64,000 bases of DNA from Arthrobacter sp. Alg241-R88 (GTDB taxonomy: Bacteria > Actinomycetota > Actinomycetes > Actinomycetales > Micrococcaceae), in the NCBI RefSeq assembly GCF_900537115.1, contig NZ_UNRG01000010.1:62001-126000 (forward strand), given 5' to 3'. The notes below the pieces were generated by a model that saw only the letters and a program-made list of their open reading frames with translations, was not told where the DNA came from and did no database searches. Both the position numbers and the translations under genes were made by a program. Position 1 is the stretch's first letter. Each line of letters starts with the position of its first letter. Of the stretch, positions 19,869 to 59,197 are shown piece by piece.

Positions 19869-19901
19869 GCCTGAAAACGGGACGTTATGCCCGTGTCAGG
19901 C
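19869..19901 (+). other. Stem-loop in the permease leader
   Basis: GCCTGA (19869-19874) pairs with TCAGGC (19896-19901), and inner CGGG (19878-19881) with CCCG (19890-19893). It ends 20 bases before the TTG start of the permease gene. No T-run follows. It could be a regulatory leader structure; it does not match the ydaO/c-di-AMP riboswitch as I know it. Confidence 0.5.
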
Positions 19902-19920
19902 AGTACAGAAAGACACGTCC

Positions 19921-23378: not shown

Positions 23379-23446
23379 ACCGGCCGGCCGACGGTCCGCG
23401 TGCCCGGCCTGCCCGGCCTGGGATGGAGGGACGCCGGGACGCAAAA

Positions 23447-23483
23447 GCACGGCCCGCCCTCCGGAACGGAGGACGGGCCGTGC
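23447..23483. terminator. Bidirectional terminator hairpin
   Basis: GCACGGCCCGCCCTCCG pairs with CGGAGGACGGGCCGTGC (one bulge or mismatch, 3-base loop) between the convergent ktrB-like and DUF2382 genes. The position serves both transcripts. Confidence 0.8.
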
Positions 23484-23516
23484 GCGGGGAATCAGTGAGG
23501 ATTCCGGTGGTGAGCC

Positions 23517-24314
23517 TTAGCGGCGGGTGCGGCCGTCGTCGTCGAGCTCGATGTTTTCCTTGCGGACTTCCTCGGTGACGGTGTGCTCGTTGGTCACCGT
23601 CTCCTTGTCCAGGCGCACGCGCTCCACCGGGACTGCTTCCTTTTCGACGACGGGGCGCTCCTCGTGGAGGATAACCTCGTGCTCTTCCTCGCTGATCGCG
23701 GGGCCGTCCATCGCGGCGCCAATGTTGGCGTCCGTGATGGGTTCGCGCTCCAGGCGGACCTCTTCACGCTGCACCGGGACGGTGGTGGTGACGTTTTCGG
23801 TGACGACGTACTTGCGCAGCCGTGCCCGGCCGGCCTCTTCCTTGCGGGTGCCGACGTGCAGCTGCTCCTCGGAGCGGGTCATGGCGTCATCGGTGGTGGG
23901 ACCGGAGGTGTCGTGGCCGACAGTTTCGCGGCCCACGGTGTCTTCCGCGGTGCCGGCAGCGAAACCGTTGCCGCCCGTGAAGCCGTTGCCGGTGTGCCCG
24001 TTGAGGCCGTAGTAGGTGTAAAGACGGTCTTCCTCTTCCGGCTCGAGGTGGCCGTCCGGGGCGACGCGGGGTGCGTCCTTGACCTTGTCCTTGGTGTGGG
24101 CCACCACGATGTCGTTGCCGTCCTGCGAAGCGGCGTCCAGCGGGGCGAACGATTCGTGAGAGCCGAAGAGCCCAGTCTTCACCGTGACCCAGGTGGGCTC
24201 GGAAGTCTGGTCATCAACATAAATCTGGCCGATGGATCCGATCTTGCTTCCGTCGGAACCTACGACGTGTCCGCCGGCAGTGGTCAGTGCAGAAAGGTTC
24301 TCAGTGCTGATCAT
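23517..24314 (-). CDS. PRC-barrel / DUF2382 stress protein
   Basis: A 265-residue soluble protein. The N-terminal PRC-barrel (about 10-75; VVGSDGSKIGSIGQIYVDD, PTWVTVKTGLFG) is followed by a Gly-rich linker and a C-terminal DUF2382 repeat region (about 150-260) of charged strands (KYVVTENVTTTVPVQREEVR, EEEHEVILHEERPVV). Such proteins are induced by stress in other bacteria; biochemical role unknown. Start ATG 24314 follows AAGGAGAAACAC. Confidence 0.88.
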   Translation of the reverse strand: MISTENLSALTTAGGHVVGSDGSKIGSIGQIYVDDQTSEPTWVTVKTGLFGSHESFAPLDAASQDGNDIVVAHTKDKVKDAPRVAPDGHLEPEEEDRLYTYYGLNGHTGNGFTGGNGFAAGTAEDTVGRETVGHDTSGPTTDDAMTRSEEQLHVGTRKEEAGRARLRKYVVTENVTTTVPVQREEVRLEREPITDANIGAAMDGPAISEEEHEVILHEERPVVEKEAVPVERVRLDKETVTNEHTVTEEVRKENIELDDDGRTRR

Positions 24315-24360
24315 GTGTTTCTCCTTCTTGTTACTGGTTTGTGCTGCTTGAGGACAAAAT

Positions 24361-24474
24361 TTAGAAGCGGTTCCGCGGCGGACGGGTCTGTCCGGCACGG
24401 AGTTGCTTGGCCTTCCGGGCCTTCAGTACCCGGCTGATGATGCCGGGGAGCAAGGCAAAGAGCAGTTTCTTCAT
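24361..24474 (-). CDS. Small basic protein (37 aa)
   Basis: ATG 24474 with AAAGGA nine bases ahead opens a 37-residue frame beginning MKKLLFALLPGIISRVLKAR and ending RPPRNRF. It combines a hydrophobic or amphipathic helix with many Lys/Arg, so it may be membrane-associated. It lies between two stress genes on the same strand, 46 bases before the DUF2382 gene. Supported by ribosome site, spacing and codon use only. Confidence 0.5.
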   Translation of the reverse strand: MKKLLFALLPGIISRVLKARKAKQLRAGQTRPPRNRF

Positions 24475-27125: not shown

Positions 27126-28748
27126 TTATACGGTCAGGTCCCTTCCGCGGATCAGGTGGCTGGCGGCTCCTGCCGCGATGAGGGCGACGGCGGCCAGCAC
27201 CAGCGCGCCTTCCGGGTGGAAGGCCTCAACGGGCATGGCTGAAGAATGCCGGAACGGGCTCAGGTCCTGAAGCCACCCTGGCAGGCCGAGCAGTTCCCCG
27301 AACTGTCCCAGGACCAGCGCGGCGGCCAGGGCACCCCAGCCAACTGCACTGCTCCAGCGGGGTGCAAGGGCGAACACGAGCACGGTCACAGCCGGGAAGA
27401 CGAGCGCCGCCGGGATGTGCGCCAGCGCGGCCGCAAAGACCATACCGGGGCTGCTTCCCCCAGCCTGCGCCAGGGCGAGCACGACGGCGGCCGAGGCTCC
27501 GGCGGCAGCGGCTACGGCCGTTGTCGAGATTGCGGCGACGGCGAGGGTGCCGCCCAGCCAGCGCATGCGCGACACCGGCGCGGCCAGGAGCAGTTCGGCC
27601 CGCCCCTCCGCCTCTTCCGCCCGAAGCCGGAGCACCGCCTCGATGCCCGCGGCAGCGGCGAGGATCCCGGCGATGCCCAGCATGGCGGCGGTGAAGAGGT
27701 CAATGAGGCCCGCGTCGCCGGGAACGATGCGGCTTAGCAGTTCCGCCACAGACGGGTTTCCTGCCAGTGCGTCCCGGACCACCGGGCCCAAGCCGCCCGC
27801 CACGGCCCCCAGGGCAGCGGTGGTGAGGCACCAACTTGCCAGGCTGCCGCGCTGCAACCGCCATGCCAGGCCCAGCATCGACGCCAGGCCGGAGCCCGCC
27901 CGTTCCGGGCCCGACTCATCGGCAGCGATGTAGCCGGCGCCCAGGTCCCTGCCGTTGCGGAGCGCCACGGCAGCCCCTGCCAGGACTACTGTTCCGGCGC
28001 CGATCACCAGCAACGGCAGCGTGTCCACCTCTGTGAAGGGCCGGATGCGCTGGCCCCAGCCGATGGGTGAGAACAGCGAGGGCCAGGCGGCGGTGACGTG
28101 CAGCAGCGATGAATCGGCGGTGCCCAGGGCGTCGCCGGCGCCCCGGACCAGGTAGGCGCCACCCACCAGCGCTGCGGCTGTACCGTTCGCGCTCCTGGCC
28201 GAGGGCATGACCTGTGCCACCAGTGCGGCGGCGGCCATAAAGAACAGGCCCACGGCGCCAACAGCTGACCCGGCCAGGAATGATCCAGGTACCGGCAGGC
28301 CGGCTCTGATGAATCCGGCGGCAGCAACCAGGGCAAGGACCACGTTTGTGAAGGTGCCAAAGAGCAGGGTTGCGTACAGGGAAGTCACCCGGGTGACCCG
28401 GGTGGAACCGACCAGCTCAAACCTGCCCTGGTCCTCATCCCCTCTGGTATGCCGGACCACCAGGAACACACTCATCAGCCCCGCCAGCACTGCCGTGAAG
28501 GAATAGCCCTGGAAGAAGGTGACCGCTCCGGAACTGATGACGTCCGGGAGCCCCCGGAGGAACAGGAACGCCGGACTGGCCGCGGCCACGGAAATCAGGG
28601 CGGCCCGCTCGTTGTCCCCGGCAAACTGTGTGGTGACGGCGGTGGCTGCCGCGTAGCCAAGACCGGCGATGCAGAGGATCCACGCCGCGAGGATTCCGCG
28701 GTCCCTGCGTGCCTCGAGCAGGGCCAGCCGAAGGACGGCGCTCATCAC
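27126..28748 (-). CDS. ABC exporter permease (polyketide-antibiotic exporter type)
   Basis: A 540-residue permease with about 12 membrane helices in two similar halves (RLALLEARRDRGILAAW and AWRLQRGSLASWCL mark the start of each half). This two-half architecture matches actinobacterial exporters described for tetronasin-like compounds. GTG 28748 overlaps the ATPase stop (GTGA). Substrate unknown; drug or lipid export is inferred from family. Confidence 0.88.
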   Translation of the reverse strand: MMSAVLRLALLEARRDRGILAAWILCIAGLGYAAATAVTTQFAGDNERAALISVAAASPAFLFLRGLPDVISSGAVTFFQGYSFTAVLAGLMSVFLVVRHTRGDEDQGRFELVGSTRVTRVTSLYATLLFGTFTNVVLALVAAAGFIRAGLPVPGSFLAGSAVGAVGLFFMAAAALVAQVMPSARSANGTAAALVGGAYLVRGAGDALGTADSSLLHVTAAWPSLFSPIGWGQRIRPFTEVDTLPLLVIGAGTVVLAGAAVALRNGRDLGAGYIAADESGPERAGSGLASMLGLAWRLQRGSLASWCLTTAALGAVAGGLGPVVRDALAGNPSVAELLSRIVPGDAGLIDLFTAAMLGIAGILAAAAGIEAVLRLRAEEAEGRAELLLAAPVSRMRWLGGTLAVAAISTTAVAAAAGASAAVVLALAQAGGSSPGMVFAAALAHIPAALVFPAVTVLVFALAPRWSSAVGWGALAAALVLGQFGELLGLPGWLQDLSPFRHSSAMPVEAFHPEGALVLAAVALIAAGAASHLIRGRDLTV

Positions 28749-29701
28749 TGCGCCTGGCTCTTGTGGCTTGCCTGCCTGCCGGCCTGCCTGCCGGCCTGCC
28801 TGCCGGCCTGCACGCCGTAGTGGCGCATGAACAGCTCCTCCAGGGAAGGGGGCGCGGCGGTAATGCCGGTGATGCCGGCTGTAGCCAAGGCATCCAGGAC
28901 GTAGCCCAGGTCCGCTGCATCGGCGTCGAACTCTATGGCGGTCCCGTTGACGCGGAGGTCGTGGATGCCCCGCCAGGTTGCCATTTCCTCTGGTTTCACC
29001 GCTGACGTGACCCGGAAGCGGATGCGGGTGAGGTGCCTTAGTTCGGCCAGGGTGCCCGATTCCACGGCCGCTCCCGCCCGAATGATGGTCACCCTGTCAC
29101 AGAGCTGTTCCACCTCGGCCAGGATGTGGCTGGACAACAGCACCGTGGCCCCGTCGGCGGCGACCCGGCGGATGTGCCGGCGGAAAACAGCATCCATGAC
29201 GGGGTCCAGGCCCGAACTCGGCTCGTCCAGCAGGTAGAGCATGGCCGGGCGGGAAAAGGCCGCGATCAAGGCCGCCTTCTGCCGGTTGCCTTTGGAGTAG
29301 GTCCGCGCCTTTTTCCGTGGATCGAAATCGAACTCATCAATCAGCTGCCTGCGCAGGCCTTCATCCGCACCGCCCCGCAGCCCGGCGATCAGGTCGATGA
29401 CCTCGCCGCCGGTCAGGTTGGGCCACAGCGTCACGTCCCCGGGGACGTAGGCAACATCCTTGTGTGCCCGCACCGGCTCAGCCCAGGGGTCGATGCCAAA
29501 CACCCGGGCCGTACCCGACGTAGGCCGGATCAGTCCCAGGAGGATCCGGAGGGTGGTGGACTTCCCTGCCCCGTTGGGCCCCAGGAAACCGTGGACCTCA
29601 CCGGGCAGAACGGACAGGTCCAAACCGGCAAGCGCAGCCGTCCGCCCGAAGTTCTTGGCAAGGCGTGAGGTGTTGATGACGGGAGATGGGTCTGCATGCA
29701 C
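28745..29701 (-). CDS. ABC transporter ATPase with repeat-generated C-terminus
   Basis: A 318-residue ATPase partner of the permease. It has Walker A GPNGAGKST, a degenerate signature YSKGNRQK, Walker B YLLDEPSSGLD and the H-loop SSHILAE, then a DUF4162-like C-terminal domain. The last 20 residues, with three QAGR copies, come from a 12-bp tandem repeat. The start is GTG 29701 with GGAG spaced six bases; upstream codons lack a ribosome site. Confidence 0.9.
   Translation of the reverse strand: MHADPSPVINTSRLAKNFGRTAALAGLDLSVLPGEVHGFLGPNGAGKSTTLRILLGLIRPTSGTARVFGIDPWAEPVRAHKDVAYVPGDVTLWPNLTGGEVIDLIAGLRGGADEGLRRQLIDEFDFDPRKKARTYSKGNRQKAALIAAFSRPAMLYLLDEPSSGLDPVMDAVFRRHIRRVAADGATVLLSSHILAEVEQLCDRVTIIRAGAAVESGTLAELRHLTRIRFRVTSAVKPEEMATWRGIHDLRVNGTAIEFDADAADLGYVLDALATAGITGITAAPPSLEELFMRHYGVQAGRQAGRQAGRQASHKSQAQ
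28771..28812. repeat. 12-bp tandem repeat in the ATPase C-terminus
   Basis: Three and a half copies of CCTGCCTGCCGG, coding on the minus strand for QAGR units. The unit is divisible by three, so copy changes alter length without shifting frame. Confidence 0.9.
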
Positions 29702-29883
29702 GGCATGCTCCGTTCCTTGGTGGCAGCTATCACGCCAAGGCGGTTGCCATGGCATGCCGCAGGCGTTTCCGCATGCGGGCCGACCAGGCTTCCCGGCTCT
29801 CCGGTGGACATCTTACAAGTGCGGCAGAAGATGCGGAAGGGGCTGCGGCTGGCCGGGGCTTTACGCCTCTACGGCTGAATACT

Positions 29884-34190: not shown

Positions 34191-34236
34191 GTGCGCCCAG
34201 GCTAGGGCCCTGTCAATAACGTGCGCCCCGACTAGG
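34191..34236. repeat. 17-bp imperfect direct repeat at the end of the GH16 gene
   Basis: GTGCGCCCAGGCTAGGG (34191-34207) and GTGCGCCCCGACTAGGG (34220-34236) flank CCTGTCAATAAC. The second copy contains the GH16 stop codon. It may be a trace of a small duplication at an insertion boundary. Confidence 0.55.
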
Positions 34237-35455
34237 GCGTTCGTGGCGCATACACCCGGACCCAATCCACCCGCATCTCGCCAGCGCCGTTGGCAGTGCT
34301 GTCCGGGAACCAGTCGAGTTGCAGCGTTTGGTGCATCGGACCGGGGGGCTGGTGCGCGGCGTTGGTGGTCTCAAACCACTTCACGCCGTCTACGTAACCA
34401 ACGATTCCGCCGGAGTGCCAGTCAACCGCGTAATTGTGGAACTGGGTTACGTCCAGCGCCTTTTCAGCGGACACCTGACGGTTCTCGCAGGAGTAGTGGT
34501 GGAAGAACTTGATGACGTTCCAGCCGCCGGTTGTCTCCGCGTAGTCGACTTCACCGTCACACGGCCAATTCCCATTGTCTGGCCACAGGATGGACACCAG
34601 GTGGTATTCGTTATCACCGGACCCGGCCGCACGGACTTCCCACCGCCCGTACTTCTGGTTTGCAAACTTCGCGCTAATGCCCGCGGTTGTGCCCTCCGGA
34701 GTTCCAGTCATAACCATTTTTGACCCGTCCACGGTAACCTGCTGGGGACTGCGGATACCGTTGCCCGCATGCCCGGGGCTGTTGTAGACAATCCACTTGG
34801 TGGCATCCGGCGCACCTGTGTAGTTGAACTCGTCGCCGGCAACAGGCTTGCCCCAACCACGAACCACCGCAGCTTCGGTTGAGGTTGCTGTGTCAGGCGC
34901 CGTGGTCACCACCAGCCGTGGGCGCAGGGCGGAATTGGAAGATTCCCTCGACTTGAACCCGATCCACTTCTGAGCGTTGCTTTCCAGCTTGAAGTTCTGC
35001 TCGCCACCTTTTGCGCCCACGCCCTTCGTAACATCCCATTCAACCCAAGAGCCGGCCGCGAAGCCGCCGGCCTTCCCCAGCCACGTTGCGCGGGCTGGTG
35101 CGTTATTCCAGATAACTCCACTCTCGGTCCAGCCGCCGGAGGTAGTAAAAACATCCACAAATTCAGTGGAGGTTGTGGACGTCTCCGAATAAGCGCGCAA
35201 TTTAGCCGAAACAACATGTTCGCCGGCCGGTACTTGAACATTGAACCGCAGGAGCGAGTTCCGCCAGATTTTCGCACGGCCCTCTGTAGAAATACGGACG
35301 CTGGCGCCAAAGTTGCTAGTCGGCTTGTCCGCCTGGACGTAGGTGTCCATGGTGGGCAGGATCGTTGATACCGCGGCACTTGCCGTTGTCGGAGTGACGA
35401 TTGCGAACCCGACCAGAAGGGATGATGCAATCGCCGCACATTTACGCCAGAACAT
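34232..35455 (-). CDS. Secreted GH16-family glycosidase with DNRLRE/CBM96-like domain
   Basis: A 407-residue exported enzyme: signal peptide (about 1-28, ending ASA), an N-terminal DNRLRE/CBM96-like beta-sandwich (about 30-190; DTYVQADKPTSNFGA, LRFNVQ, VWNNAPA-like segments), and a GH16 domain (about 200-405). The catalytic signature ExDxxE is GEVDYAE, lacking the beta-bulge residue. The enzyme likely cleaves beta-1,3/1,4-glucan or another plant, algal or bacterial glucan outside the cell. By eye the gene and its 250-bp upstream gap are much less GC-rich than the neighbours, suggesting recent acquisition. Confidence 0.85.
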   Translation of the reverse strand: MFWRKCAAIASSLLVGFAIVTPTTASAAVSTILPTMDTYVQADKPTSNFGASVRISTEGRAKIWRNSLLRFNVQVPAGEHVVSAKLRAYSETSTTSTEFVDVFTTSGGWTESGVIWNNAPARATWLGKAGGFAAGSWVEWDVTKGVGAKGGEQNFKLESNAQKWIGFKSRESSNSALRPRLVVTTAPDTATSTEAAVVRGWGKPVAGDEFNYTGAPDATKWIVYNSPGHAGNGIRSPQQVTVDGSKMVMTGTPEGTTAGISAKFANQKYGRWEVRAAGSGDNEYHLVSILWPDNGNWPCDGEVDYAETTGGWNVIKFFHHYSCENRQVSAEKALDVTQFHNYAVDWHSGGIVGYVDGVKWFETTNAAHQPPGPMHQTLQLDWFPDSTANGAGEMRVDWVRVYAPRTP

Positions 35456-36176: not shown

Positions 36177-36848
36177 CTAGGCGGCGTGCATCCGGGGCGC
36201 CAGGTCGTTGACCCGGTTGGAGATGTCAGTGAAGGCGCTCTCGAAGGCTTCCTCGGTGTTGATCCGGAGGGGATCGGGCACAGACCAGTGGATGCCCCCG
36301 AGGCCGGTAAGTTCCTCGTGGGCGTTGTCGCAGACAGTGACCACGAAGTCGCCGCCACTCACCCTGTCAAGCTTGCGGGGCGGAACCTCCGCAAGCTTCA
36401 CGCCGTGGCGGCGGGCCACCTCAATGGCTCCCTGGGCGATGCGGTCACCGGGGTGTGTTCCTGCCGAGGTTGAGGGGATTTCGCTGGCCTCGCGCCAGAG
36501 GGCGGCAGCCAGCTGGGACCGGGCGCTGTTCCGCGTGCAGACAAACACAACGCGGCTGGCTGCATGCTCCTCCCCAGGCGCAAGGCCTTCCAAAGCCCTG
36601 GCGGCCAGCCTGATGTAGCTTCGGCGCTTGTCCGCCTCAGAGCGGTGGCGGGTTGCCAGCCCGGCTCCTTCCAAGGCACGCAGGTGGTGGGACAGCAGGT
36701 TCGAGGGCATGTTCAGTTCAGCCTGAAGTTCCGTGGGCGAAAAGTCCCCGAGGGTCAGCAGGTCCACAATGCGCAGGCGTGCAGGATCAGCAAGGGCGGC
36801 GTGTTTTGCGACCCGTGCCTGGAATCCGTCTTCTCGCTCAGTTTTCAT
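36177..36848 (-). CDS. ArsR repressor fused to LMW phosphatase (ArsC-like) domain
   Basis: A 223-residue fusion: winged-helix ArsR domain (about 5-90; ALADPARLRIVDLLTLGDFSPTEL, SNLLSHHLRALEGAGL) followed by an LMW-PTP/arsenate-reductase domain (about 98-220) with the P-loop CTRNSARS and the DP loop SVPDP. The start is ATG 36848. The frame is open to 37010, but that part lies over the divergent aquaporin gene. The fused enzyme may act as a sensor or as a second reductase. Confidence 0.92.
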   Translation of the reverse strand: MKTEREDGFQARVAKHAALADPARLRIVDLLTLGDFSPTELQAELNMPSNLLSHHLRALEGAGLATRHRSEADKRRSYIRLAARALEGLAPGEEHAASRVVFVCTRNSARSQLAAALWREASEIPSTSAGTHPGDRIAQGAIEVARRHGVKLAEVPPRKLDRVSGGDFVVTVCDNAHEELTGLGGIHWSVPDPLRINTEEAFESAFTDISNRVNDLAPRMHAA

Positions 36849-36866
36849 TGACTCAACTTTGACTGA
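36848..36866. promoter_or_regulatory. ars divergent operator candidate
   Basis: TCAACTTTGA (36853-36862) is a TCAA-CT-TTGA dyad nested in two direct TTGACT copies (36848-36853, 36859-36864), in the 46-bp gap between the divergent arsR-fusion and aquaporin genes. It is suited to one ArsR dimer silencing both. Confidence 0.55.
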
Positions 36867-36894
36867 GATACTCTCGTGCGTCAAGCTTGATGCC

Positions 36895-37635
36895 ATGACT
36901 ACAAACCAGCCACCGCTGTGGCGCCGCGCCGTCGCAGAGCTTCTTGGCACCAGCCTGCTCGTGATGGTCGTTGTAGGCTCGGGCATCGCGGCGCAGCAGC
37001 TCTCCCCCAACGACGTCGGGCTGCAGCTGCTTCAGAACAGCACCGCGACAGTGCTGGGGTTGACCGTCCTGATCCTCGTGTTCGGACCTGTCAGCGGCGC
37101 GCACTTCAACCCTGTGGTCTCGCTCGTGGACTGGATCCTGGGGCGGCGCAGCGGTACGGGACTGACCCTGCCCGAGCTCGGCACCTACGTCGTGGTACAG
37201 ACGCTCGGCGCCATCGGCGGAAGCGTGGTGGCTAACGCGATGTACGACGTCGGCACCTCCATCTCCAGCAAGGACCGGGCAACCGGCGGGCACCTCCTCG
37301 GTGAAGTTGTTGCCACCGCCGGGCTGATCCTGCTGATCTTTGCGCTCGCCGCAACCAAGCGGGGCGTGCTTGCCGCGCCGGCGGTGGGCGCCTACATCGG
37401 CGCAGCGTACTGGTTCACATCCTCCACCTCGTTCGCGAACCCTGCAGTGACGGTCGGCCGCATCTTTAGCGACACGTTCGCCGGCATCGCACCGGGCTCC
37501 GTACCCTCGTTCGTCATCGCCCAGCTCATCGGCGCGGCAGCGGGCCTGGGCCTCCTGCTCGTCCTGTTCCCCTCAGCGGCCCGCGCCGCCGACGACGTCG
37601 TACTCCCGCACCAGGTGGACAAGGCCAACTCCTAG
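36895..37635 (+). CDS. Aquaglyceroporin-type MIP channel of the ars locus (AqpS-like)
   Basis: A 246-residue MIP channel with six helices and the paired half-helix motifs GAHFNPVVS (first, NPV rather than NPA) and FANPAVTVG (second). Placement divergent from arsR matches AqpS of Sinorhizobium, where arsenite made by ArsC leaves by downhill flow through the channel; no ArsB/Acr3 pump is in the window. Start ATG 36895. Confidence 0.88.
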   Translation: MTTNQPPLWRRAVAELLGTSLLVMVVVGSGIAAQQLSPNDVGLQLLQNSTATVLGLTVLILVFGPVSGAHFNPVVSLVDWILGRRSGTGLTLPELGTYVVVQTLGAIGGSVVANAMYDVGTSISSKDRATGGHLLGEVVATAGLILLIFALAATKRGVLAAPAVGAYIGAAYWFTSSTSFANPAVTVGRIFSDTFAGIAPGSVPSFVIAQLIGAAAGLGLLLVLFPSAARAADDVVLPHQVDKANS

Positions 37636-41292: not shown

Positions 41293-42426
41293 TTAGGCAG
41301 TGGCCTCGGCGTCGGACGGTTCCGGCACCTGCAGGCCCGAAGCGAACACGGACTCGGCCATCTGGGCTGCGATCGCATCCCAGTGGTACTTCTTCAGCAG
41401 CTCCCGGGTCTTCGGCTTGGGGCCGCGTGAAGGATCCCGCTGGCCGAGGGTCCGGCACAGCGAAGCAAAACCCGCGCCGTCGTCGCGCAGGTGCACCACG
41501 CCCGGGAAGTCAGCCACAACGTCCGGCACCCGGGTGGACACCACAGGAAGTCCGGCCGCCAGATATTCCAGCGTCTTGGTGGGGCTGATGGAACGGGTTG
41601 CCTCATTCAGAGCAAACGGCATCAGTGCAACGTCCAGGCCGGCCATCACCGCCGGAAGGTCCGCGTAGCAGGTATACCCCTCGTAACTGATGTTGGGCGC
41701 CTGGGGCAGGCTGGCCGGATCGATCTTGGCCACCGGCCCGTACATCCTGATGTCCCACTCCGGCAACGCGCGGGCCAGGTCCGCGATAAGGCCCAGGTCC
41801 AGCCGTTCGTCCAGGACTCCCACGTATCCGGCAACGGGACGCTGCCCCGGAACCCGGGGCTCCGCCGTCGGGGTCCTGTAGTGCTCCGGCTCCACGCCGC
41901 TGGGGAAGAGCAGGGTGTCTGCGCGGCCCTGCCGCACCATGGACCGGTGCAGGGAGCGGCCGCCGGCAAAGACGACGTCGGCCCGGCGGAGTGCCTGCCG
42001 CTGCCTCACCACCAGCTCGGGCGGGGCGTCCTTGAAGGCGGCGAGATCGTCCATCACGTCGTACACCAGCGTGGTGGGCTGCAGGGCGAGGGCAAGTTCC
42101 AGGGCCAGCGGGGTGTACAGCCACACCACCCGTTCCCCCGTGGGCGGACCCACCAGTTCGGGCAGCTGCTCGATGTAGTCGGGGAGGACGTCGTCGAAAA
42201 ATCCCACGTGGTGGCCCTGCTCGGGGATCTCCAGCCAGGCCCGGTTCAGCCCGTCCACCCTCTTATGGTTGATCCGGTTCGGCCCGGTAAATCCGGGCGA
42301 CGGCGTGAGCGGTTCCTCCACGTACCAGGTGGAACAGCGGGAGCCCAGGCGGGAAACGAGGTGCTGGGGGCGCTGCCATACCCAGTCCCAGCGGAGATGC
42401 GACAAAACGATCAGTTCACTCTGCAT
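41293..42426 (-). CDS. Glycosyltransferase, GT4-like
   Basis: A 377-residue two-domain GT-B enzyme. The N-terminal motif LSHLRWDWVWQRPQHLVSRL and the C-terminal nucleotide-sugar motif SPTKTLEYLAAGLPVVSTRVPDV identify it. Last gene of the coupled surface-polymer operon; its start lies 11 bases inside the GH1-like gene. Likely adds a sugar to a lipid- or wall-linked polymer on the cytosolic face. Confidence 0.88.
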   Translation of the reverse strand: MQSELIVLSHLRWDWVWQRPQHLVSRLGSRCSTWYVEEPLTPSPGFTGPNRINHKRVDGLNRAWLEIPEQGHHVGFFDDVLPDYIEQLPELVGPPTGERVVWLYTPLALELALALQPTTLVYDVMDDLAAFKDAPPELVVRQRQALRRADVVFAGGRSLHRSMVRQGRADTLLFPSGVEPEHYRTPTAEPRVPGQRPVAGYVGVLDERLDLGLIADLARALPEWDIRMYGPVAKIDPASLPQAPNISYEGYTCYADLPAVMAGLDVALMPFALNEATRSISPTKTLEYLAAGLPVVSTRVPDVVADFPGVVHLRDDGAGFASLCRTLGQRDPSRGPKPKTRELLKKYHWDAIAAQMAESVFASGLQVPEPSDAEATA

Positions 42427-43747
42427 TGACTATCCTCAATTCCATCCGGGTCTGTGCGTTGGGCAGGCTGTTTCCCTGATCCGCGTCAGGGGCTTCACTC
42501 CAATTCCAGTGGGACATGTGTGATTCGTATCCGCGCAGCCAGGTAGCCACGGGTTCGCGAAGCGTGAAGGCCGGCAGGTCTTTCGACGGCGTGCCGGCCG
42601 CGGCTTTCGCATAGGACTCGGACATGACTGACGGCTGACGGGCCAGCTCGTCGTCCAGCCAATACACCCCCACGGGGTCGATGTGCCCATCGTTGCGGAA
42701 CAGAAGCGACGCCCAGTCCGTGGAGTCAATCACGGGGAACCAGCACAGGCCGTCCAAGGGAACCCCCATGTGCCGGGCCCGTTCGCACTGCTCCAAAACG
42801 TACTTGAACCAGGTGGCCCGGTCGGATGTGAAGCCGCGGATGTTGGTTTCGGTGAGCAGGCACGGGAACCGGTAGCGGTCCCAGTACAGGTAGATCTGCT
42901 GCGCCAGGGGCAGGGGATGCGGCGTGTGGGTGGACCCGCCCTTGTCATCGAAGTGCCACTGGCAGTGGGCGTAGTAGTCCAGGCCCAGCACGTCGATCCG
43001 TCCCGGCTCCATTTCCTGCAGCTTCTCTCCCCCGGCGTCGCGGAGCAGCTCCGCCATGGGGCCGTCCGGGTCGTAGCCCTTGCCGTCGTATTTGCCCAGG
43101 AAGCTGTCCAGCACCAGGAACCGGCGCTCGTTGGCCATGGTGGCGTAGGCACCGCCGGCGGCCCCTTCCCCGGTGTGGTGCTCGCAGGTGTCCACCCAGA
43201 CGTGCTTGGCGCCGGGCAGCAGTTCCGCATAGGCGCGGCTCGCCTCCGCCACTGCCGGCAGCACGTTGAGGATCTGGCGTACGAAGCTGTCCACGCCCTC
43301 GTGGTAGGGCGGCCAAATGGCCTCGTGCCCGGTAAGGAACAGGGTGGAGAAGGGCTCGTTGAAGAGCGTGTACTCCTGCACCCACGGGTACCGCCGGGCG
43401 AACTCTTCCGTGTACCGAAGGTAGGCGGTGCGGAAGCGGGGGTCCGCGAAGCCGCCCTCCATCCACCGGGGATAGCTGGTGTGGTGCACCAGGTCCACGA
43501 TGGGCCGGAAGCCGTTGTCCCGGAGATAGTGCAGCACCTTGTCCGTGTCCTGCCAGTTGAAGACCCCTTCCTCGGCTTCCACCCGGTGCCAGCGGACGGG
43601 GTACCGCAGCCGGCTCACCCCGCATTCGGTGAGCAGTTTCAGGTCCTGCTTCCACTGGACATCGTGGGCCGTGGATTCGAAGATGTCCCTGTCGTGCCGG
43701 GGAAGATACGTGCTCTCAAAGGCGCCAATGATGTCGATTCCGCTCAT
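42416..43747 (-). CDS. GH1-like glycosidase domain protein
   Basis: A 443-residue TIM-barrel protein of clan GH-A. RYPVRWHRVEAEEGVFNWQDTDKV and the acid/base motif LFNEPF (E131) with the probable nucleophile in LLTETN (E300) are GH1 features; the conserved QW loop is altered. There is no signal peptide, so it is cytosolic. In a biosynthetic operon it may trim or transfer a sugar, rather than degrade food. ATG overlaps the upstream stop (ATGA). Confidence 0.85.
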   Translation of the reverse strand: MSGIDIIGAFESTYLPRHDRDIFESTAHDVQWKQDLKLLTECGVSRLRYPVRWHRVEAEEGVFNWQDTDKVLHYLRDNGFRPIVDLVHHTSYPRWMEGGFADPRFRTAYLRYTEEFARRYPWVQEYTLFNEPFSTLFLTGHEAIWPPYHEGVDSFVRQILNVLPAVAEASRAYAELLPGAKHVWVDTCEHHTGEGAAGGAYATMANERRFLVLDSFLGKYDGKGYDPDGPMAELLRDAGGEKLQEMEPGRIDVLGLDYYAHCQWHFDDKGGSTHTPHPLPLAQQIYLYWDRYRFPCLLTETNIRGFTSDRATWFKYVLEQCERARHMGVPLDGLCWFPVIDSTDWASLLFRNDGHIDPVGVYWLDDELARQPSVMSESYAKAAAGTPSKDLPAFTLREPVATWLRGYESHMSHWNWSEAPDADQGNSLPNAQTRMELRIVNAE

Positions 43748-44013
43748 CTGCCCGCCCCTTCCCCCTCCAGGGCAGGAGCCTCCGCGGGCAGGCGGCCCGG
43801 GTTGCCGGCCAGGTGCTCGTAGACGAGGTCCAGCAACTCGGCGGCCCTCCGGTTCAGCCGCCGGGACTCGTCCAGGTCCCGGTCCAGCCGGACAACCTCG
43901 GCGCGCAGTTCGGCGATATCCGTTGCGGCTATGGCCAGGCGCAGGTTGACCTCTTCCAGCGGGTCGCTCAGGGGCTCGTGCTCGTGGATGGCGTCAATCA
44001 GGGGATCATTCAT
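43744..44013 (-). CDS. Small coiled-coil protein of the surface-polymer operon
   Basis: An 89-residue protein: residues 18-68 form a heptad-rich coiled coil (EEVNLRLAIAATDIAELRAE, VRLDRDLDESRRLNRRAAEL). ATG 44013 overlaps the LicD-methyltransferase stop, and its stop overlaps the GH1-like start, so it is made with both. It may be a scaffold or coupling subunit. No family recognised. Confidence 0.75.
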   Translation of the reverse strand: MNDPLIDAIHEHEPLSDPLEEVNLRLAIAATDIAELRAEVVRLDRDLDESRRLNRRAAELLDLVYEHLAGNPGRLPAEAPALEGEGAGR

Positions 44014-45617
44014 GGCAGGGCCCTCACTTTCACTCGTTGCGTGGGTATGGCGCCGTCGGCCGGGCGCCCTGGTTGTGGTGGAACTTCCTCCGCTTCCAGC
44101 CCCAGCTTTGCGAGGCTGGCTTTCAGATCGGCAACGTTCATGGGCGCATAGAAGCGGCACTCCGGGAAAGCCGGTTCGGACTCCCCCACCTGGACTTCCA
44201 GGAAGGCCGCGGCGGCCTGGCCCTGGTTCCGCAAAAGCTGGCGGACCAGCCCCAGCGTGTTCTCCCGGCCTTGCCAGTCAAGCGAATTCAGCAGCAGCCG
44301 CGCGTACACATACAGGGGACCTGGGCCCTCATTCAGGATCCTGGCCAGCGGGGCGGTCTCCCGAAGTGAGTTGAGGTTGACCCGGCGGAACTCCAGGGAC
44401 CCGTGGCCAGCGTGTTGCGCGCGCAGGTGCTCGATTGCCGGGCGGCTGTAGTCAACGGCCACCACTTGGTGCCCCTGCTCCGAGAAGTGCCGCGCGTCGC
44501 CGCCGAGGCCGCAGCCCAGTTCCAGGATGCGTGAGCCCGGCGGCAGCCCGCGGGCCAGCTCCTCCGCCCAGGCCGACGGCGTCTGGCCGGCACCGTGCCC
44601 GCCCTGACCCCGCAGCAGAACCCGGTGGTGGTCCTCCCAGTTCTCCCGGTCCCAGTCCAGGCCGCCCAGCCACGTGTCATAACGGCGGCGGGCAGGCGGC
44701 GGCGTGATGAAACGGAACGCGGGATCAGGGGTGTGCCAGCCGGGCCCGTAAATCGCGGCCAGCATCTGCTCCGGCTCGGCCGGTGCGGGCAGCTCCCGTC
44801 CGTTGATGCTGAGGTTCCGCAGCGGAAAGATGGTCACGTCCTCCGTGCGTTCGCGGGCATGGAACGTGCCGTGGAACCAGCCGCCCACGTTGAAGTAGGT
44901 GAAGATGTCCAGGTAGAACCGGTCCGTGCCGTCCGCGCCGGGGAACAGCAGCTGCAGGTGCCCTGCTGAGTGCCTGACCGTTTCGTAGCCTTCCGCATGA
45001 AGGGCCCGTTCCAGCTCGAAGCCCTCCAGCGCGATGTCCGAGGGATTTTCGTGCCGGCTCAGGTAGGCCAGGTCAACATCGTCGTCGCCGGGCATCACCC
45101 GGCCGTCCCGGACGGGCCCCAGGAGGGTGCCGCCGGTGACGAACAGCTCCTGGCCGCGGCCCCGCATCCACTCCACGAGCCTGCAGGCCTCATCCAGCGC
45201 CTCGTCAATCAGGTAGGCGCGCCGGCCTTCGAAGTTCCGTGCGATCCGCCCCCACTTGTTGATGATTTGCGGCATCCCCGTGCCGGGCTCCTCGAGTGAG
45301 AACTGGTGGGGTGAATCATCAAAGGTGACTCTCGCCGTCGGGCATAACGGCGTTCCGTCCTGCAGCACGCTCAGCCGCGCCCACCCGGACAGCCGGCCGG
45401 CGAGGGCCGGCGGCCAGTCGATGATGCAGCAGCCGGGGCCGCGCCTGGCGCCCTCGCCGGAGTGGACGCTCCAGATGGGCCTGTCCCCCAGCAGGATGGA
45501 CAGGGTGGCGCCGGCCCGAATGGGCGGGCCGGCGAGGGTCAGCGATACCCTGTCCGCCCGAAGGCTGTGGCTGTAGCTATTGCTGGTAACGCTGCGTACC
45601 TCGACGTCCTGGCTCAT
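44010..45617 (-). CDS. LicD-type phosphotransferase fused to SAM methyltransferase
   Basis: A 535-residue protein with three parts. An N-terminal beta-rich region (1-110) of unknown type. A LicD/fukutin-type nucleotidyltransferase domain (about 125-310) with TGGTLLGPVRDGRVMPGDDDVD (the GG, and Asp 178-180 and 182, landmarks given as one motif) and YLDIFTYF. A class I methyltransferase (about 345-480) with SAM loop ILELGCGLGGD and VVAVDYS. LicD enzymes move phospho-alcohols from CDP carriers to wall glycans, so with the CDP-polyol enzyme upstream it may add and methylate a polyol phosphate. Start ATG 45617 overlaps the previous stop. Confidence 0.85.
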   Translation of the reverse strand: MSQDVEVRSVTSNSYSHSLRADRVSLTLAGPPIRAGATLSILLGDRPIWSVHSGEGARRGPGCCIIDWPPALAGRLSGWARLSVLQDGTPLCPTARVTFDDSPHQFSLEEPGTGMPQIINKWGRIARNFEGRRAYLIDEALDEACRLVEWMRGRGQELFVTGGTLLGPVRDGRVMPGDDDVDLAYLSRHENPSDIALEGFELERALHAEGYETVRHSAGHLQLLFPGADGTDRFYLDIFTYFNVGGWFHGTFHARERTEDVTIFPLRNLSINGRELPAPAEPEQMLAAIYGPGWHTPDPAFRFITPPPARRRYDTWLGGLDWDRENWEDHHRVLLRGQGGHGAGQTPSAWAEELARGLPPGSRILELGCGLGGDARHFSEQGHQVVAVDYSRPAIEHLRAQHAGHGSLEFRRVNLNSLRETAPLARILNEGPGPLYVYARLLLNSLDWQGRENTLGLVRQLLRNQGQAAAAFLEVQVGESEPAFPECRFYAPMNVADLKASLAKLGLEAEEVPPQPGRPADGAIPTQRVKVRALP

Positions 45618-47086
45618 GGCAGCGCTACCAGTTCGGAGTCTTTGGACGGGTCGGTGTAAGGGAGCCGGACGTCCACCACCTGCCCGGTCATGGCCGAGGC
45701 CAGGACCTGGATGCTGGCCCCGGCCACAGCCGCCGCGGGCAGCAGGGACCCTTCCTCCTCCGCGCCGAACGCCCTGGTCCGCATAGGGGTGGCGGTGCGG
45801 CTGGGGCTGATGCAGTTCACCCGGATGCCGTCCGAGCTCCACTCGTCCGCGAGCGCCTGGGTAAGGTTCACGATCGCAGCCTTGGTGGCTGAGTAGACCG
45901 TGTAGTTGGCCCGGCCGCGGGTGTAGGAACTGGAGGCGAAAAGCGTCAGCGATCCCTTGCTTTCGGCCAGGTACTTTTGCGATTCCTGGGCCACGATGAA
46001 GGCGGCCGTGAGGTTCACATCCACGTCGTGGTGCAGCTGCTCATCGGTGAGCTGGGCGAGCGGCCCCACGCTGAGGACGCCGGCCGTGAGGATGACGTGG
46101 TCGAGGTGGCCATGGGTGGCGGCGGCGGAGGCCAGCGCCTGGGCCACGCACTGGCGGTCCTCCACGTAGGTTCCGTTGCCGGTGCGGCTCTGCCCCACCA
46201 CCAGGGCGCCTTCCGCCTCGAGCTGCTGGACAAGCTCCAGGCCGATCCCCGAACTTGCACCGAACACCAGCACGGTGGAGCCGCGGAGCCCGGCCCTGTT
46301 CCCGCCGGGCAGCATGGTTTTGTGCTTGAGCTGGAACAGTTTGTCCGCAAGGTGGATGTCGATGGGCTGGGTGATCTTGATGTTGGCCTCGTCCCCGTCC
46401 ACCACGAAGATGGGGACGTCCGGGCAGTACTTGAGGACCACAGAGCAGTCGTCCGTGGCGGAGAAGCCAGGGTCCTGGCCGGCCCGTTCGTACGCCTCGG
46501 CAATCACGGGCATCCGGAACGCCTGCGGGGTCTGGCCCCTTCGCAGTTTGGCCCGCGGCGGCACTGCGCGAATGAAGTTCTCATCATCCACTTCGATGAT
46601 GGTGTCCGCTGAGGGGATGGCGGTGTCGACCGCGGCGTAGACGTCGAGCGCGCGGATGCAGGCAATGATGATGTCGCCGTCGAGCAGGGGGCGGACGGCG
46701 TCGTGGAAGATGACGTTGGCGTCCTTGTCCGCGATGGCGGCCAGGGCCAGGCGGGAGGTTTCGCTGCGGTCCGCCCCGCCCGGCAGGATGCCGGCGAGTT
46801 TGCTGAACTTGTTGGCTGCCTTCGCATCAGCGTTGGCGCCCGGTTTGCTGCCCAGGAGCAGTTCCTCGGCGCGGGGGATGTAACCCGGAGCCATCATAAC
46901 GATCATCTCGTCCACCAGCCCGCAGTGCTGGAACAGCTCCACCGTGTGCTCGAGGCTGGTGCGGCCGGCGATCGGGACAAACTGTTTGGGGATGTCCAGG
47001 CCCATGCGGGCGCCGACTCCTCCCGCCAAAATGACCGCCACGTTGCGGCGGCGGGTACCGGGTGGAGAGGGTGGTTTCTGGTCCAT
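45614..47086 (-). CDS. Bifunctional cytidylyltransferase / SDR (CDP-ribitol-type synthesis)
   Basis: A 490-residue fusion. The N-terminal half (about 15-245) is an IspD/TarI-type cytidylyltransferase with the CTP loop AVILAGGVGARMG and K34, and HDAVRPLL. The C-terminal half (about 265-490) is a short-chain dehydrogenase with VFGASSGIG and the active YxxxK in YSATK. The same fusion in Haemophilus (Bcs1/Acs1) makes CDP-ribitol from ribulose-5-phosphate; the same reaction is inferred here. Start ATG 47086 has AAAGGA ahead; an ATG at 47101 overlaps that site. Confidence 0.9.
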   Translation of the reverse strand: MDQKPPSPPGTRRRNVAVILAGGVGARMGLDIPKQFVPIAGRTSLEHTVELFQHCGLVDEMIVMMAPGYIPRAEELLLGSKPGANADAKAANKFSKLAGILPGGADRSETSRLALAAIADKDANVIFHDAVRPLLDGDIIIACIRALDVYAAVDTAIPSADTIIEVDDENFIRAVPPRAKLRRGQTPQAFRMPVIAEAYERAGQDPGFSATDDCSVVLKYCPDVPIFVVDGDEANIKITQPIDIHLADKLFQLKHKTMLPGGNRAGLRGSTVLVFGASSGIGLELVQQLEAEGALVVGQSRTGNGTYVEDRQCVAQALASAAATHGHLDHVILTAGVLSVGPLAQLTDEQLHHDVDVNLTAAFIVAQESQKYLAESKGSLTLFASSSYTRGRANYTVYSATKAAIVNLTQALADEWSSDGIRVNCISPSRTATPMRTRAFGAEEEGSLLPAAAVAGASIQVLASAMTGQVVDVRLPYTDPSKDSELVALP

Positions 47087-47114: not shown

Positions 47115-48032
47115 CTAGTGGCGGCCGCAGGGGGTGCCTCCCGCGTTTTCGGTGGCGGATGGGATGTCGATTTTGGCGGCCTGGAGCCGCTGCCGGGTTT
47201 CCTCCGCGGTGATGTAGGAGTTCATCCGTGGGTACTCGCCCACCGGAACCACCGCCGAGACAAAGGTCCGGTTGTGGATGCGGATCAGGTTGAAGGACCG
47301 GGCGCCGTCCAGGCCCTGCATGGCGCCCGCGGGCAGTGCCAGGTCCTGGGTGTAGCTGGTGGAGGCTGCCACCGATACCGGGATGCTGGCGAAGGTTGAA
47401 AAGACGCTGTGATGGGTGTGGCCGGAGAGTATCCCGATGACGTCGCTGCCCTCCAGCACCCGGGCGAGGCTCTCCTGGTTCCGCAGCTCCGAAAGCACCG
47501 CGAGTTCCTGGACCGGCGGCACAGGCGGGTGGTGGATCACCAGGAGGGTGCCGTCGTCGGCCTGTGTCTCCAGTTGCCCCGCCAGCCAGTGCAGCTGCTC
47601 CTCGCTGATCTCGCCGTGGTGGTATCCAGGGGTGGAGGAGTCAAGGACCAGCACCCGGAGGTTGCCCAGGTAGTAGCTGCGGTCCACCGGAAGGGTGCGC
47701 GGCTCCTCGTCGAGAAGCATCTTTTGGAAGTTCATGCGTTCGTCGTGGTTGCCCATGGCCCAGATGAGTTGCGCGCCCATGCGCTCGGCATACGCCTGGC
47801 AGGTGGTCCGCAGCCGCCGGTAGGCTTCCAGGCTGCCCTTGTCCGCCAGGTCACCGGAGAAGATGATGGCTTCCGGCTTCAGGCCGCTGGCTTCGATGGC
47901 GTCAAGGACTTCCACCAGCCCCGTTTGGGGATCCAGCTCGCCGTACAGCAACCCCTCTTCCACATAGTGAGGGTCGCTCACGTGGACCAGCACATGGTTG
48001 GGGTTTGAGTACTCGGACCGGGTCAGGTGCAT
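47115..48032 (-). CDS. Calcineurin-like metallophosphoesterase (CpdA type)
   Basis: A 305-residue dimetal phosphoesterase with the complete motif set: VHVSDPHY, FSGDLADKG, AMGNHDER, VIHHPPVP and GHTHHS. CpdA relatives cleave cyclic nucleotides or phosphodiesters. It lies 28 bases before the cytidylyltransferase/SDR gene and is probably first gene of the surface-polymer operon. An AAAGG ribosome site precedes ATG 48032. Confidence 0.9.
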   Translation of the reverse strand: MHLTRSEYSNPNHVLVHVSDPHYVEEGLLYGELDPQTGLVEVLDAIEASGLKPEAIIFSGDLADKGSLEAYRRLRTTCQAYAERMGAQLIWAMGNHDERMNFQKMLLDEEPRTLPVDRSYYLGNLRVLVLDSSTPGYHHGEISEEQLHWLAGQLETQADDGTLLVIHHPPVPPVQELAVLSELRNQESLARVLEGSDVIGILSGHTHHSVFSTFASIPVSVAASTSYTQDLALPAGAMQGLDGARSFNLIRIHNRTFVSAVVPVGEYPRMNSYITAEETRQRLQAAKIDIPSATENAGGTPCGRH

Positions 48033-51916: not shown

Positions 51917-52801
51917 CTACTCCTTCTTGAGCTTGTCCTGAATGGTTCCCGCAGCCTTCTCCATCATGTTCGGCAGCTCGGTGGTGCCGTAGAAGCGGGA
52001 ATCCGGGTGCGTGGGCGGCGGCATGGGGACTCCGGCCGGGGGCTCTGCGACGTATGTGAACTCGCCCAGGCCGTCCGGCGTGGGGCCCTTGGCCCACGAA
52101 CCCTCCGCCGCGGCCTGGCCGTCGGAGAAGTTCCGGTACTGGTAGGCGACGTCCCGCATCTCCTTGTTGATGGGGAAGTTGCTGGGTACCGGGAAGTTTT
52201 CCTTGCCCTCTTCCTGCAGCTCCTTGGCCGCCGCAATCCATTGATTCTGGTGCATGGTGTCCCGTGCCAGCAGGAAGGACAACATATCGCGAATGCCATG
52301 GTCGTCTGTCATGTGATACAGCCGGGCCACCTGCAGCCGGCCCTGCATTTCGGCGTTGGCGTTGGCCCAAAAGTCTGCCAGCATGTTGCCGCTGGCAGTG
52401 ATGTAGCTGCCCTGCCACGGGTTGCCGTTGCTGTCCACGGGCCGGACGCCGGCGCCGGCCACGATGGCGGACTGAACGTCGGTTCCACCCACGATCGCCG
52501 CAACGGTGGGATCGGCCTGCACGGCGTCTTCGGTGATGCCCAGGGGTGCTTTCTCCAGCAGCTGGGCGATCATGGTGGCCAGCATCTCAACGTGGCCAAA
52601 TTCCTCGGCGCCGATTCCGAACAGCATGTCCCGATATTTCCCTGGCATGTGGGCGTTCCAAGCCTGGAACGAGTACTGCATGGCAACGGTGATTTCGCCG
52701 TACTGCCCGCCCAGGACTTCCTGCAGCTTTCGGGCGTAGACGGCGTCCGGCTTATCCGGCGTCGCCTTGTATTGAAGTTCCTGCTTGTGAAAGAAAACCA
52801 T
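51917..52801 (-). CDS. Manganese catalase family protein
   Basis: A 294-residue ferritin-like di-Mn catalase. Ligand motifs: GQYGEITVAMQYSFQAW, GAEEFGHVEML, NANAEMQGRLQVARL and LLARDTMHQNQW. The N-terminal MVFFHKQELQY is family-typical. It destroys H2O2 in the cytosol without haem. Start is ATG 52801 with GAGAGGA; upstream ATG at 52825 is less likely. Confidence 0.9.
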   Translation of the reverse strand: MVFFHKQELQYKATPDKPDAVYARKLQEVLGGQYGEITVAMQYSFQAWNAHMPGKYRDMLFGIGAEEFGHVEMLATMIAQLLEKAPLGITEDAVQADPTVAAIVGGTDVQSAIVAGAGVRPVDSNGNPWQGSYITASGNMLADFWANANAEMQGRLQVARLYHMTDDHGIRDMLSFLLARDTMHQNQWIAAAKELQEEGKENFPVPSNFPINKEMRDVAYQYRNFSDGQAAAEGSWAKGPTPDGLGEFTYVAEPPAGVPMPPPTHPDSRFYGTTELPNMMEKAAGTIQDKLKKE

Positions 52802-52879
52802 GAGTATGTCCTCTCGAGCCCACATCTGGATTTGTTTGAACCGATCCGGTTCCGGCAGCCGATTTAATCAGCATGCTTA

Positions 52880-57856: not shown

Positions 57857-59197
57857 CTAAGGCCGCTCCTGGTACACGTCCGGGATGCCGTCGTGGTCCG
57901 CGTCCACTCTTTCGGCAGCTTCAGCTGCACGGTACTGGCGGTTCCTGGTCTTCAATACGGCCGTTGCGAGCAGGGCTGCCAGCAGCGACGCAGCGAGAAT
58001 GCCTACCTTGGCATGGTCATCATGCAGGCTTCCCTGCCCGAAGCTAAGCTCGGCCACCAGCAGGGACACGGTGAACCCGATACCGGCCAGCAGTGCAACC
58101 CCGAACACGTCAATCCACTTGAACGATTTGTCCAACTCCGCCCTGCTGGTCTTCGTCAGGAGCCAAGTGGTGCCCATGATGCCGATGGGCTTCCCCAGCA
58201 CCAGCGCCACGATGATGCCCAGCGCCACCGGATCCGCGAGCGCTGAACCCAGTCCTTCCCAGCCGCCAACAGCTACACCGGCGGAGAAGAAGGCGAAGAT
58301 GGGAACAGCCACCCCTGCCGAGATGGGCCGGAACCGGTGCTCGAAGACCTCGGCAAGGCCCGGTCCCGCTGCGGGTCCGCCCGCCGCCTGCGAGCGGAGC
58401 ACGGGAACGGCGAAGCCCAGCAGCACACCGGCCACCGTGGCGTGAATACCGGAGGCATGGACAAGGGCCCACGTGACCACGCCGAGCGGCAGCAGGATGA
58501 CCCAGGCCGCTGAAGCTTTCCGGCCAAAGAAGTAGCGGTACTTCTGCGCGAGGAACGCGTAGATAGCCAGCGGGATGAGGGCCAGGAGCAATGGCATGAC
58601 GTGCAGGTCGCTGGTGTAGAAGAAGGCGATGATGGTGATGGCAATGAGGTCATCAACGACGGCCAGGGTCAGCAGGAAGATCCGCAGCGCGCTGGGCAGG
58701 TGCGAGCCGATGATGGCCAGGACCGCCACTGCGAAGGCGATGTCGGTGGCTGTGGGAATGGCCCAGCCGCGCAGCGTCTCCGGGCTGGTGAGGTTGATGG
58801 CGGCGTAGATCAGCGCCGGGACCACCACGCCGCCCGCTGCAGCGGCCACCGGGACGATCGATTTACTGATTTGGCGGAGATCCCCCGCCACGAACTCCCG
58901 CTTGAGCTCGAGGCCCACCAGGAAGAAGAAGATCGCCAGCAGCCCGTCGGCCGCCCAGGCTCCGAGGCTCAGTTCAAGGTGCCAGGGTTCGTAGCCCACC
59001 TTGAAGTCCCGGAGTGCGAAGTAGCTGTCCGATGCGGGCGAATTTGCCCAGACCAAGGCGATGAGCGCCGCGGCCACCAGTAGCGCTCCACCCACGGTTT
59101 CCTTGCGCAGGATCTCCCCGATCCGCAGGGATTCGGCATAGCTGCCCCGTCCGAAGATCGTGGAGCGGGTGGGGTTGGGTGGGGGCGTTTTACTCAT
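57857..59197 (-). CDS. nhaA: Na+/H+ antiporter NhaA
   Basis: A 446-residue antiporter with about 11-12 helices. [17 protein letters not shown] and [10 protein letters not shown] (the paired Asp of the ion site) are NhaA hallmarks. The C-terminal tail is longer than in E. coli (388 aa) and ends with the DxDxD-like [14 protein letters not shown], resembling a thrombospondin-type-3/EF-hand Ca2+ motif. Confidence 0.93.

Follow-up and report, generated by a model that had tools for sequence, protein, structure and literature searches.

Within a 64-kb window of the genome of Arthrobacter sp. Alg241-R88 (C10:62001-126000 of the 4.37 Mb assembly), five minus-strand open reading frames (ORFs) form an operon at 41293-47086, in which successive genes overlap by 4, 4, 4 and 11 bases (Table 1). 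According to their Pfam domains, the products are an IspD-type cytidylyltransferase fused to a short-chain dehydrogenase/reductase (SDR; IspD and adh_short), a LicD domain fused to a class I S-adenosylmethionine (SAM) methyltransferase (LicD and Methyltransf_25/23), a small coiled-coil protein (DUF6752), a glycoside hydrolase (GH)-like protein (Glyco_hydro_1) and a glycosyltransferase (GT; Glyco_trans_1_4), here referred to as P0001 to P0005. The operon is composite: its first three genes constitute a polyol module and its last two a GH-GT core. A previous sequence-only reading of this DNA had described five coupled genes overlapping by 4-11 bases, and our analysis returned the same ORFs, positions and overlaps. 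An in-frame ATG at 47101 offers an alternative start for P0001, and the metallophosphoesterase gene upstream ends 28 bases before the P0001 start.

Table 1. Features of the operon and its surroundings; positions are those of the window.
Feature	Position	Strand	Evidence
Calcineurin-type metallophosphoesterase, probable accessory gene	47115..48032	-	PF00149 61.5 bits
IspD/TarI-type cytidylyltransferase-SDR reductase fusion, bifunctional (P0001, 490 aa)	45614..47086	-	PF01128 156.9 bits, PF00106 108.6 bits
LicD-type phospho-alcohol transferase and class I SAM methyltransferase fusion (P0002, 535 aa)	44010..45617	-	PF04991 31.6 bits, PF13649 34.0 bits
Small coiled-coil protein, DUF6752 (P0003, 89 aa)	43744..44013	-	PF20537 31.5 bits
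GH1-like glycosidase fold (P0004, 443 aa)	42416..43747	-	PF00232 52.3 bits
GAGGAT, ribosome-binding-like site for the GT, within the GH 3' end	42432..42437	-	Sequence
TuaH-like glycosyltransferase, GT-B type (P0005, 377 aa)	41293..42426	-	PF13692 36.3 bits
Osmotic and oxidative stress genes in the window	16520-24398, 36733-37635, 51917-52825, 57857-59197		

How far does this arrangement extend beyond a single strain? Relatives of the LicD-methyltransferase (E 1e-10) occur in 9 of 150 genomes of the genus, 14 of 245 of the family and 28 of 394 of the class, the own genome included, and in all 16 strong matches outside it (at least 497 bits; genus and family) the five genes are present and their order is unchanged. 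The GH alignment, scanned once against the GTDB genomes, yielded 55 loci. All five genes are present in 19 of these, 18 of Arthrobacter, Pseudarthrobacter or other Micrococcaceae type and one from Herbiconiux; the window GH is closest to Pseudarthrobacter and Arthrobacter proteins. The predicted co-occurrence in Micrococcaceae is thereby borne out, and the relatives hold the operon as a conserved unit, not as the scattered, unlinked homologues that had been named beforehand as the contrary outcome. In six of eight relatives from the genus, both flanks of the operon contain genes of the window; this is not so in one (L058), and one (L059) is a short contig. A phosphoesterase homologue lies beside the operon in 17 of the 19 loci, upstream in 6 and downstream in 11. 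The four large proteins diverge in parallel across the 19 loci (correlation of pairwise identities, r 0.94-0.97), as expected of a unit inherited together or merely of related strains.

The coupling itself is likewise conserved. With gene starts taken as those closest to the upstream stop, a choice that favours short gaps, the IspD-SDR/LicD and LicD/coiled-coil junctions measure exactly -4 in 19/19 loci, and each of these also has the in-frame GT ATG at -11 and GAGG or a one-base variant at the place of the ribosome-binding-like site. The coiled-coil/GH junction varies: 12 loci show -4, one shows -8 and six have values of +1 to +119. This spacing thus resolves the operon into two tight blocks, IspD-SDR with LicD-methyltransferase and coiled coil on the one side and GH with GT on the other, connected by a looser joint. 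Chance clustering of the five genes is rejected in view of the order and overlaps kept across relatives.

Four weaker loci hold parts of the set: the LicD-methyltransferase and the coiled coil in L068, LicD alone in L069 and L070, and the IspD-SDR and LicD-methyltransferase fusions in L071. In 20 regions from the class search, no IspD-SDR, GH or GT was detected at 45 bits. One complete Arthrobacter-type operon, counted among the 18, comes from an assembly labelled Vibrio cholerae 35D (L114, WNZI01000007.1), which is probably mislabelled or contaminated because the locus sits inside the Arthrobacter clade. Split tblastn pieces in L055 (8523-9207, the SDR part) and L056 (12414-13545, the GT) suggest frameshifts, real or assembly-derived, and on a short contig of 3255 bases (L107), fragments resembling IspD and the coiled coil lie in an unusual order with GH and GT.

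P0001 combines two domains in one chain, PF01128 at residues 16-249 and PF00106 reaching residue 439, and displays the motifs GASSGIG and YSATK. Its closest PDB sequences are the ribitol-5-phosphate cytidylyltransferases 4jis (8.1e-30) and 6xhp (7.9e-28), which rank before the IspDs, and over its full length it is 40% identical to a fusion protein from the E. coli O118/O151 locus and 47% identical to one from Parabacteroides. On the curated ispD model (TIGR00453, cut-off 181.3) and the D-ribitol-5-phosphate cytidylyltransferase model (NF001183, cut-off 166) it scores 162.8 and 146.7 bits, below both cut-offs; the E. coli fusion reaches 180.2 and 180.7, the latter over the cut-off, and the Parabacteroides fusion 178.9 and 161.3. 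The housekeeping IspD is a separate gene on contig C7, with 191.8 bits on the ispD model and 79.2 on the ribitol model, followed by an ORF that resembles IspF by eye. Since only the C7 gene exceeds the ispD cut-off, P0001 is not the IspD of the methylerythritol phosphate pathway, which speaks against a cytidylyltransferase that makes CDP-methylerythritol only. A third IspD-like match in the genome is GlmU. P0001 is a probable CDP-ribitol synthase by sequence; the earlier reading had noted its resemblance to such enzymes of capsule loci and proposed a CDP-polyol as product. The available part of one account mentions that bacterial ISPD homologues are occasionally fused to reductases (PMC4873967).

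In P0002, a beta-rich stretch of about 100 residues without a family match precedes the LicD domain, which exceeds the PF04991 gathering cut-off of 22.6 bits. The family was matched in 31 of 32 aligned LicD members, and the motifs TGGTLLGPxRxG and DDDxD, invariant in 19/19 loci, complete the assignment. The LicD family members known so far act on glycans or lipid-linked glycans. Searched against PDB sequences, the LicD profile (32 rows) matched Fukutin-related protein (FKRP), a human muscular-dystrophy enzyme that uses CDP-ribitol, with E=2.2e-11, the next match standing at 0.99. A structure search with the model of the whole fusion (mean pLDDT 76) listed methyltransferases only and no LicD fold, so that the link to FKRP comes from the sequence profile. 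LicD proteins transfer the phosphate along with the alcohol, according to the portion of PMC4873967 available, and the LicD domain of P0002 is probably a phospho-alcohol transferase. The methyltransferase half is less conserved (35-43% identity in more distant carriers vs 56-61% for LicD), with its SAM motif residues L367, G368, G370-G372 and D374 invariant.

P0003 matches DUF6752 (PF20537), a family for which we found nothing in the open-licence literature searched, a coverage that cannot prove absence. In L071 the LicD-methyltransferase protein itself ends in a stretch that resembles DUF6752 at 22.8 bits, under the cut-off of 27, and the small coiled coil therefore looks like a detached tail of that protein. 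There the two fusion genes stand in the same order, among two Wzy_C genes, an ABC-2 exporter pair, a GT2 and a UDP-glucose dehydrogenase; the LicD half is only 36% identical, and the Pfam LicD model is not listed for it at E 0.001. Divergent LicD-methyltransferases of the class (L072-L091) are found near sulfotransferase-like P-loop proteins (by eye, with no Pfam match), PS_pyruv_trans, NTP_transferase and DUF6752 proteins.

The second block is built around a protein with a GH1 fold. The model of P0004 (mean pLDDT 88.6) aligns to the beta-glucosidase 2j77 with a TM score of 0.70, its PF00232 score lies above the cut-off of 22.6, and the catalytic Glu131 and Glu300 are invariant (32/32). Of the usual GH1 residues of the -1 subsite, however, the N before YY and the E before the W of the last motif are replaced by D257 and D344, again invariant (32/32), which makes an ordinary beta-glucosidase role doubtful. 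The accompanying P0005 scores 68.5 bits on the NCBIfam TuaH model, against a cut-off of 550, and has no PDB sequence match at E 0.001.

The GH-GT pair forms a core of its own, which is spread more widely than the operon and ranges from Actinomycetota to Pseudomonadota. In 47 of the 55 loci the GT comes after the GH or is fused to it, and the two were called as a single ORF in 13, in one of them (L147) with a frameshifted GH. A UDP-galactopyranose mutase (Glf) is present in 11 loci and a similar flavoenzyme in 7 within the fetched stretch: a Pantoea soli plasmid (L158, 5840-9568) encodes a single protein of 1242 residues comprising GH (26-330), GT (388-745) and flavoenzyme (778-1231), Comamonas antarctica a GH-GT protein followed by glf, Phyllobacterium zundukense a GT-Glf protein, and Caballeronia grimmiae GH, GT and glf near one another. 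Such a partner occurs in none of the 19 polyol loci vs 18 of the 36 others (Fisher p 6.8e-5, a descriptive value that ignores relatedness and cut contigs), and 18 of the 55 loci hold neither polyol module nor Glf nor similar flavoenzyme. No description of a Glf, GH1 and GT set was found among the titles listed from the open-licence literature searched, which cannot prove absence. The setting of the core is stress-type on Phyllobacterium and Phenylobacterium plasmids and not on those of Pantoea or Comamonas. The Pantoea soli protein carries the annotation FAD-dependent oxidoreductase, and in L126, L128 and L129 the GH is followed directly, without GT, by a protein that resembles an aldo/keto reductase by eye.

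When did the two modules come together? A GH tree of 53 rows unites the 20 polyol rows, the window among them, with three Microbacteriaceae rows that have no polyol module in one clade (100/100). On this tree the polyol label needs three changes, a number reached in 0 of 500 shuffles, though near-copies favour such an outcome; they may represent one gain and two losses. In Glaciihabitans (L131), a clade row without the polyol module, a Glf gene (PF03275, 264.3 bits) instead precedes the GH by 45 bases. Genome G025 of the same genus as the window strain (L192; G025:C7, 8012-10288) has window-like flanks, in which the phosphoesterase is followed only by an intact coiled-coil gene with 69% identity and no trace of the four enzyme genes was found; this gene either witnesses a loss around it or is a remnant.

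Which known systems come closest? Acs1 and Bcs1 of Haemophilus influenzae capsule loci unite a reductase and a cytidylyltransferase in one chain, in the parts of the two accounts available to us (PMC10299916, PMC4873967), and Bcs1 converts ribulose 5-phosphate, NADPH and CTP to CDP-ribitol, as far as the former source goes. The likeness to P0001, in which IspD precedes the SDR and which falls below the curated ribitol cut-off, is one of description, and the genomic setting of the operon is not that of a capsule locus. The same IspD-SDR fusion is found in the E. coli O118/O151 locus, with a LicD gene one gene away together with wzx and wzy, and in a Parabacteroides polysaccharide locus, where LicD is the next gene; these differ in possessing a flippase and/or polymerase, in a LicD that is not described as methyltransferase-fused and in lacking the GH-GT pair. 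The human ISPD-FKTN-FKRP pathway likewise joins an IspD-type maker of CDP-ribitol to a LicD-type transferase, with FKRP as the match of our LicD profile, but acts on alpha-dystroglycan, and the accessible text of PMC4873967 describes no reductase or methyltransferase fusion for it. The sets of GH1-like protein, TuaH-like GT and UDP-galactopyranose mutase on plasmids and in actinobacteria share the GH and GT families, adjacent or fused, but have Glf or a similar flavoenzyme in place of the polyol module; we found no name for them. The chemistry of the CDP-ribitol/LicD half is of a known kind, and what is new is its arrangement with methyltransferase and coiled coil; the GH-GT half stands apart as an orphan core. 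The claim that the set is apparently undescribed is too broad as it stands, as IspD-SDR beside LicD is familiar from O-antigen and capsule loci and the GH-GT pair is a wider module of its own. The pairing of a CDP-polyol synthase with LicD is itself supported by the domains and by these other loci. No LicD and methyltransferase wall-polymer system of actinobacteria was found in the open-licence literature searched, and the titles there on Arthrobacter wall polymers and O-methylated teichoic acids offered nothing on the chemistry of this operon.

From these data we lean, with some reserve, towards a two-module cytoplasmic pathway that decorates an envelope glycan with ribitol phosphate; in this scheme we infer ribitol as the polyol, and also the acceptor, the methyl target, the role of the GH and the envelope location. 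The SDR domain of P0001 would reduce ribulose 5-phosphate to ribitol 5-phosphate, which its IspD/TarI domain would turn into CDP-ribitol with CTP. The LicD domain of P0002 would move ribitol 5-phosphate onto a sugar hydroxyl and the attached methyltransferase would methylate the product or a neighbouring sugar, with P0003 as detached tail or scaffold. The earlier reading had put the methyl group on the polyol phosphate and given the GH the tailoring of a sugar, two points that stay conjectural. The GT would add a sugar, and the GH1-like protein might trim, proofread or transglycosylate, on a lipid-linked or nascent envelope glycan. By Pfam the operon has no exporter, flippase, polymerase, initiating phosphoglycosyltransferase or lipid-carrier transferase and one GT only, so decoration most likely falls on a wall glycan whose synthesis and export lie elsewhere. 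The best candidate would be the glycan of a locus at about C1:771.7-776.5 kb, which contains the only GLF gene of the genome, a GlfT2-type galactofuranosyltransferase, an ABC-2 permease and an ABC ATPase, and which is wall-galactan-like with its own exporter. The earlier proposal that an existing wall glycan is decorated fits this division of labour, with the acceptor remaining the inferred part. Its premise that flippase and polymerase are missing is correct for the operon; the window, however, has an ABC-2-type pair at 27126-29755, 12 kb from the operon, and the genome the galactofuran ABC exporter. A Pfam scan of 30 of the 52 other called window ORFs showed no Wzx, Wzy or TagF family. PF04464 (TagF-type polyol-phosphate polymerase) had no match in the whole genome, the same search being positive in 3 of 14 control genomes, and a classical teichoic-acid or capsule locus was rejected for want of such a gene.

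Several observations weigh against decoration of an envelope glycan with ribitol phosphate. The absence of a TagF-type polymerase from the genome and of an exporter from the operon is one, and the patchy distribution, 9 of 150 genomes in the genus, is another. All five proteins lack an N-terminal hydrophobic stretch and thus give no direct sign of a link to the envelope. This, with the missing exporter and lipid-carrier transferase, would be expected if the product were a soluble cytoplasmic phosphodiester or glycoside, osmolyte-like and never at the surface; in the same direction point the window neighbours KdpD, TrkH, aquaporin, Na+/H+ antiporter, Mn catalase and PRC/DUF2382 and the Namib topsoil origin of three carriers, NamB4, NamE5 and NamE2, given in the available part of PMC6813385. 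Such neighbours are only circumstantial, however, and LicD/IspD-SDR pairs sit in surface-polysaccharide loci of three other bacteria, which makes a soluble product improbable in our view. The operon could also build a free-standing new glycolipid or polymer that a carrier elsewhere exports, given its own GT, donor synthesis and transferase and the capsule-type and ABC transporter genes near the Caballeronia cores. With a single GT and neither an initiating phosphoglycosyltransferase nor a polymerase or flippase, we hold this to be equally improbable.

The identity of the polyol is exposed to doubt from two sides: P0001 misses the curated cut-offs with the higher of its two scores on the ispD model, and FKRP, as the only LicD-like PDB match, cannot separate CDP-ribitol from CDP-choline or other donors. 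The pathway might therefore be the same with arabitol, xylitol or erythritol, for instance, as the polyol, and the low score on the ribitol model would be in line with this. Teichoic acids based on other pentitols and on tetritols have been described in Micrococcales. Against it stand the TarI proteins as closest PDB sequences, the fused SDR as in Bcs1/Acs1-type enzymes and the identity to the fusion of the O118/O151 locus, whose antigen presumably contains ribitol phosphate, although we found no confirming paper; another polyol thus appears unlikely, if slightly less so than the two preceding alternatives. The departure of the GH from the GH1 consensus in the -1 subsite also counts against the scheme as drawn. 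Finally, two unrelated pathways might share one transcript, the GH-GT pair having nothing to do with polyol phosphate: each module is found without the other, and the coiled-coil/GH joint is loose in 6 of 19 loci. Yet both modules are present in 19 of 23 clade rows plus the window, across two families and with correlated divergence, and although related strains inflate both figures, we deem a mere cohabitation very unlikely.

Returning to ribitol phosphate on an envelope glycan, a more specific version is conceivable, which we put forward as speculation and judge rather unlikely as a whole. The GH-GT pair would be a core for building or editing galactofuranosyl glycans, whose partner was exchanged for a ribitol-phosphate module in one actinobacterial clade. 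The operon would place methylated ribitol phosphate on galactofuranose (Galf) residues of a wall galactan that comes from the glf-GlfT2-ABC locus, to switch charge and hydration under drying or osmotic stress, and would represent a bacterial cousin of ISPD-FKRP with a glycosidase as biosynthetic partner. Galf as the acceptor is suggested by that locus and by the precedent of Streptococcus oralis WefL, which is proposed to place ribitol 5-phosphate on Galf in the portion of PMC3989065 available. The stress link of the operon is suggestive and circumstantial. If the main reading of ribitol phosphate on an envelope glycan is right, Micrococcaceae would have a route to this modification that can be assayed and that needs no teichoic-acid polymerase, and LicD/FKRP-type transfer could be studied together with methylation in a simple bacterial model. 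The orphan GH-GT(-Glf) core of Actinomycetota through to Pseudomonadota would become more accessible too. The exchange of partners beside this core, a polyol module where other loci have UDP-galactopyranose mutase, offers a clue to its product that can be tested. Elsewhere in the window, a GH26-like protein (9978-11312) and a protein with CBM96 and GH16 domains (34232-35455) are possibly polysaccharide-degrading.

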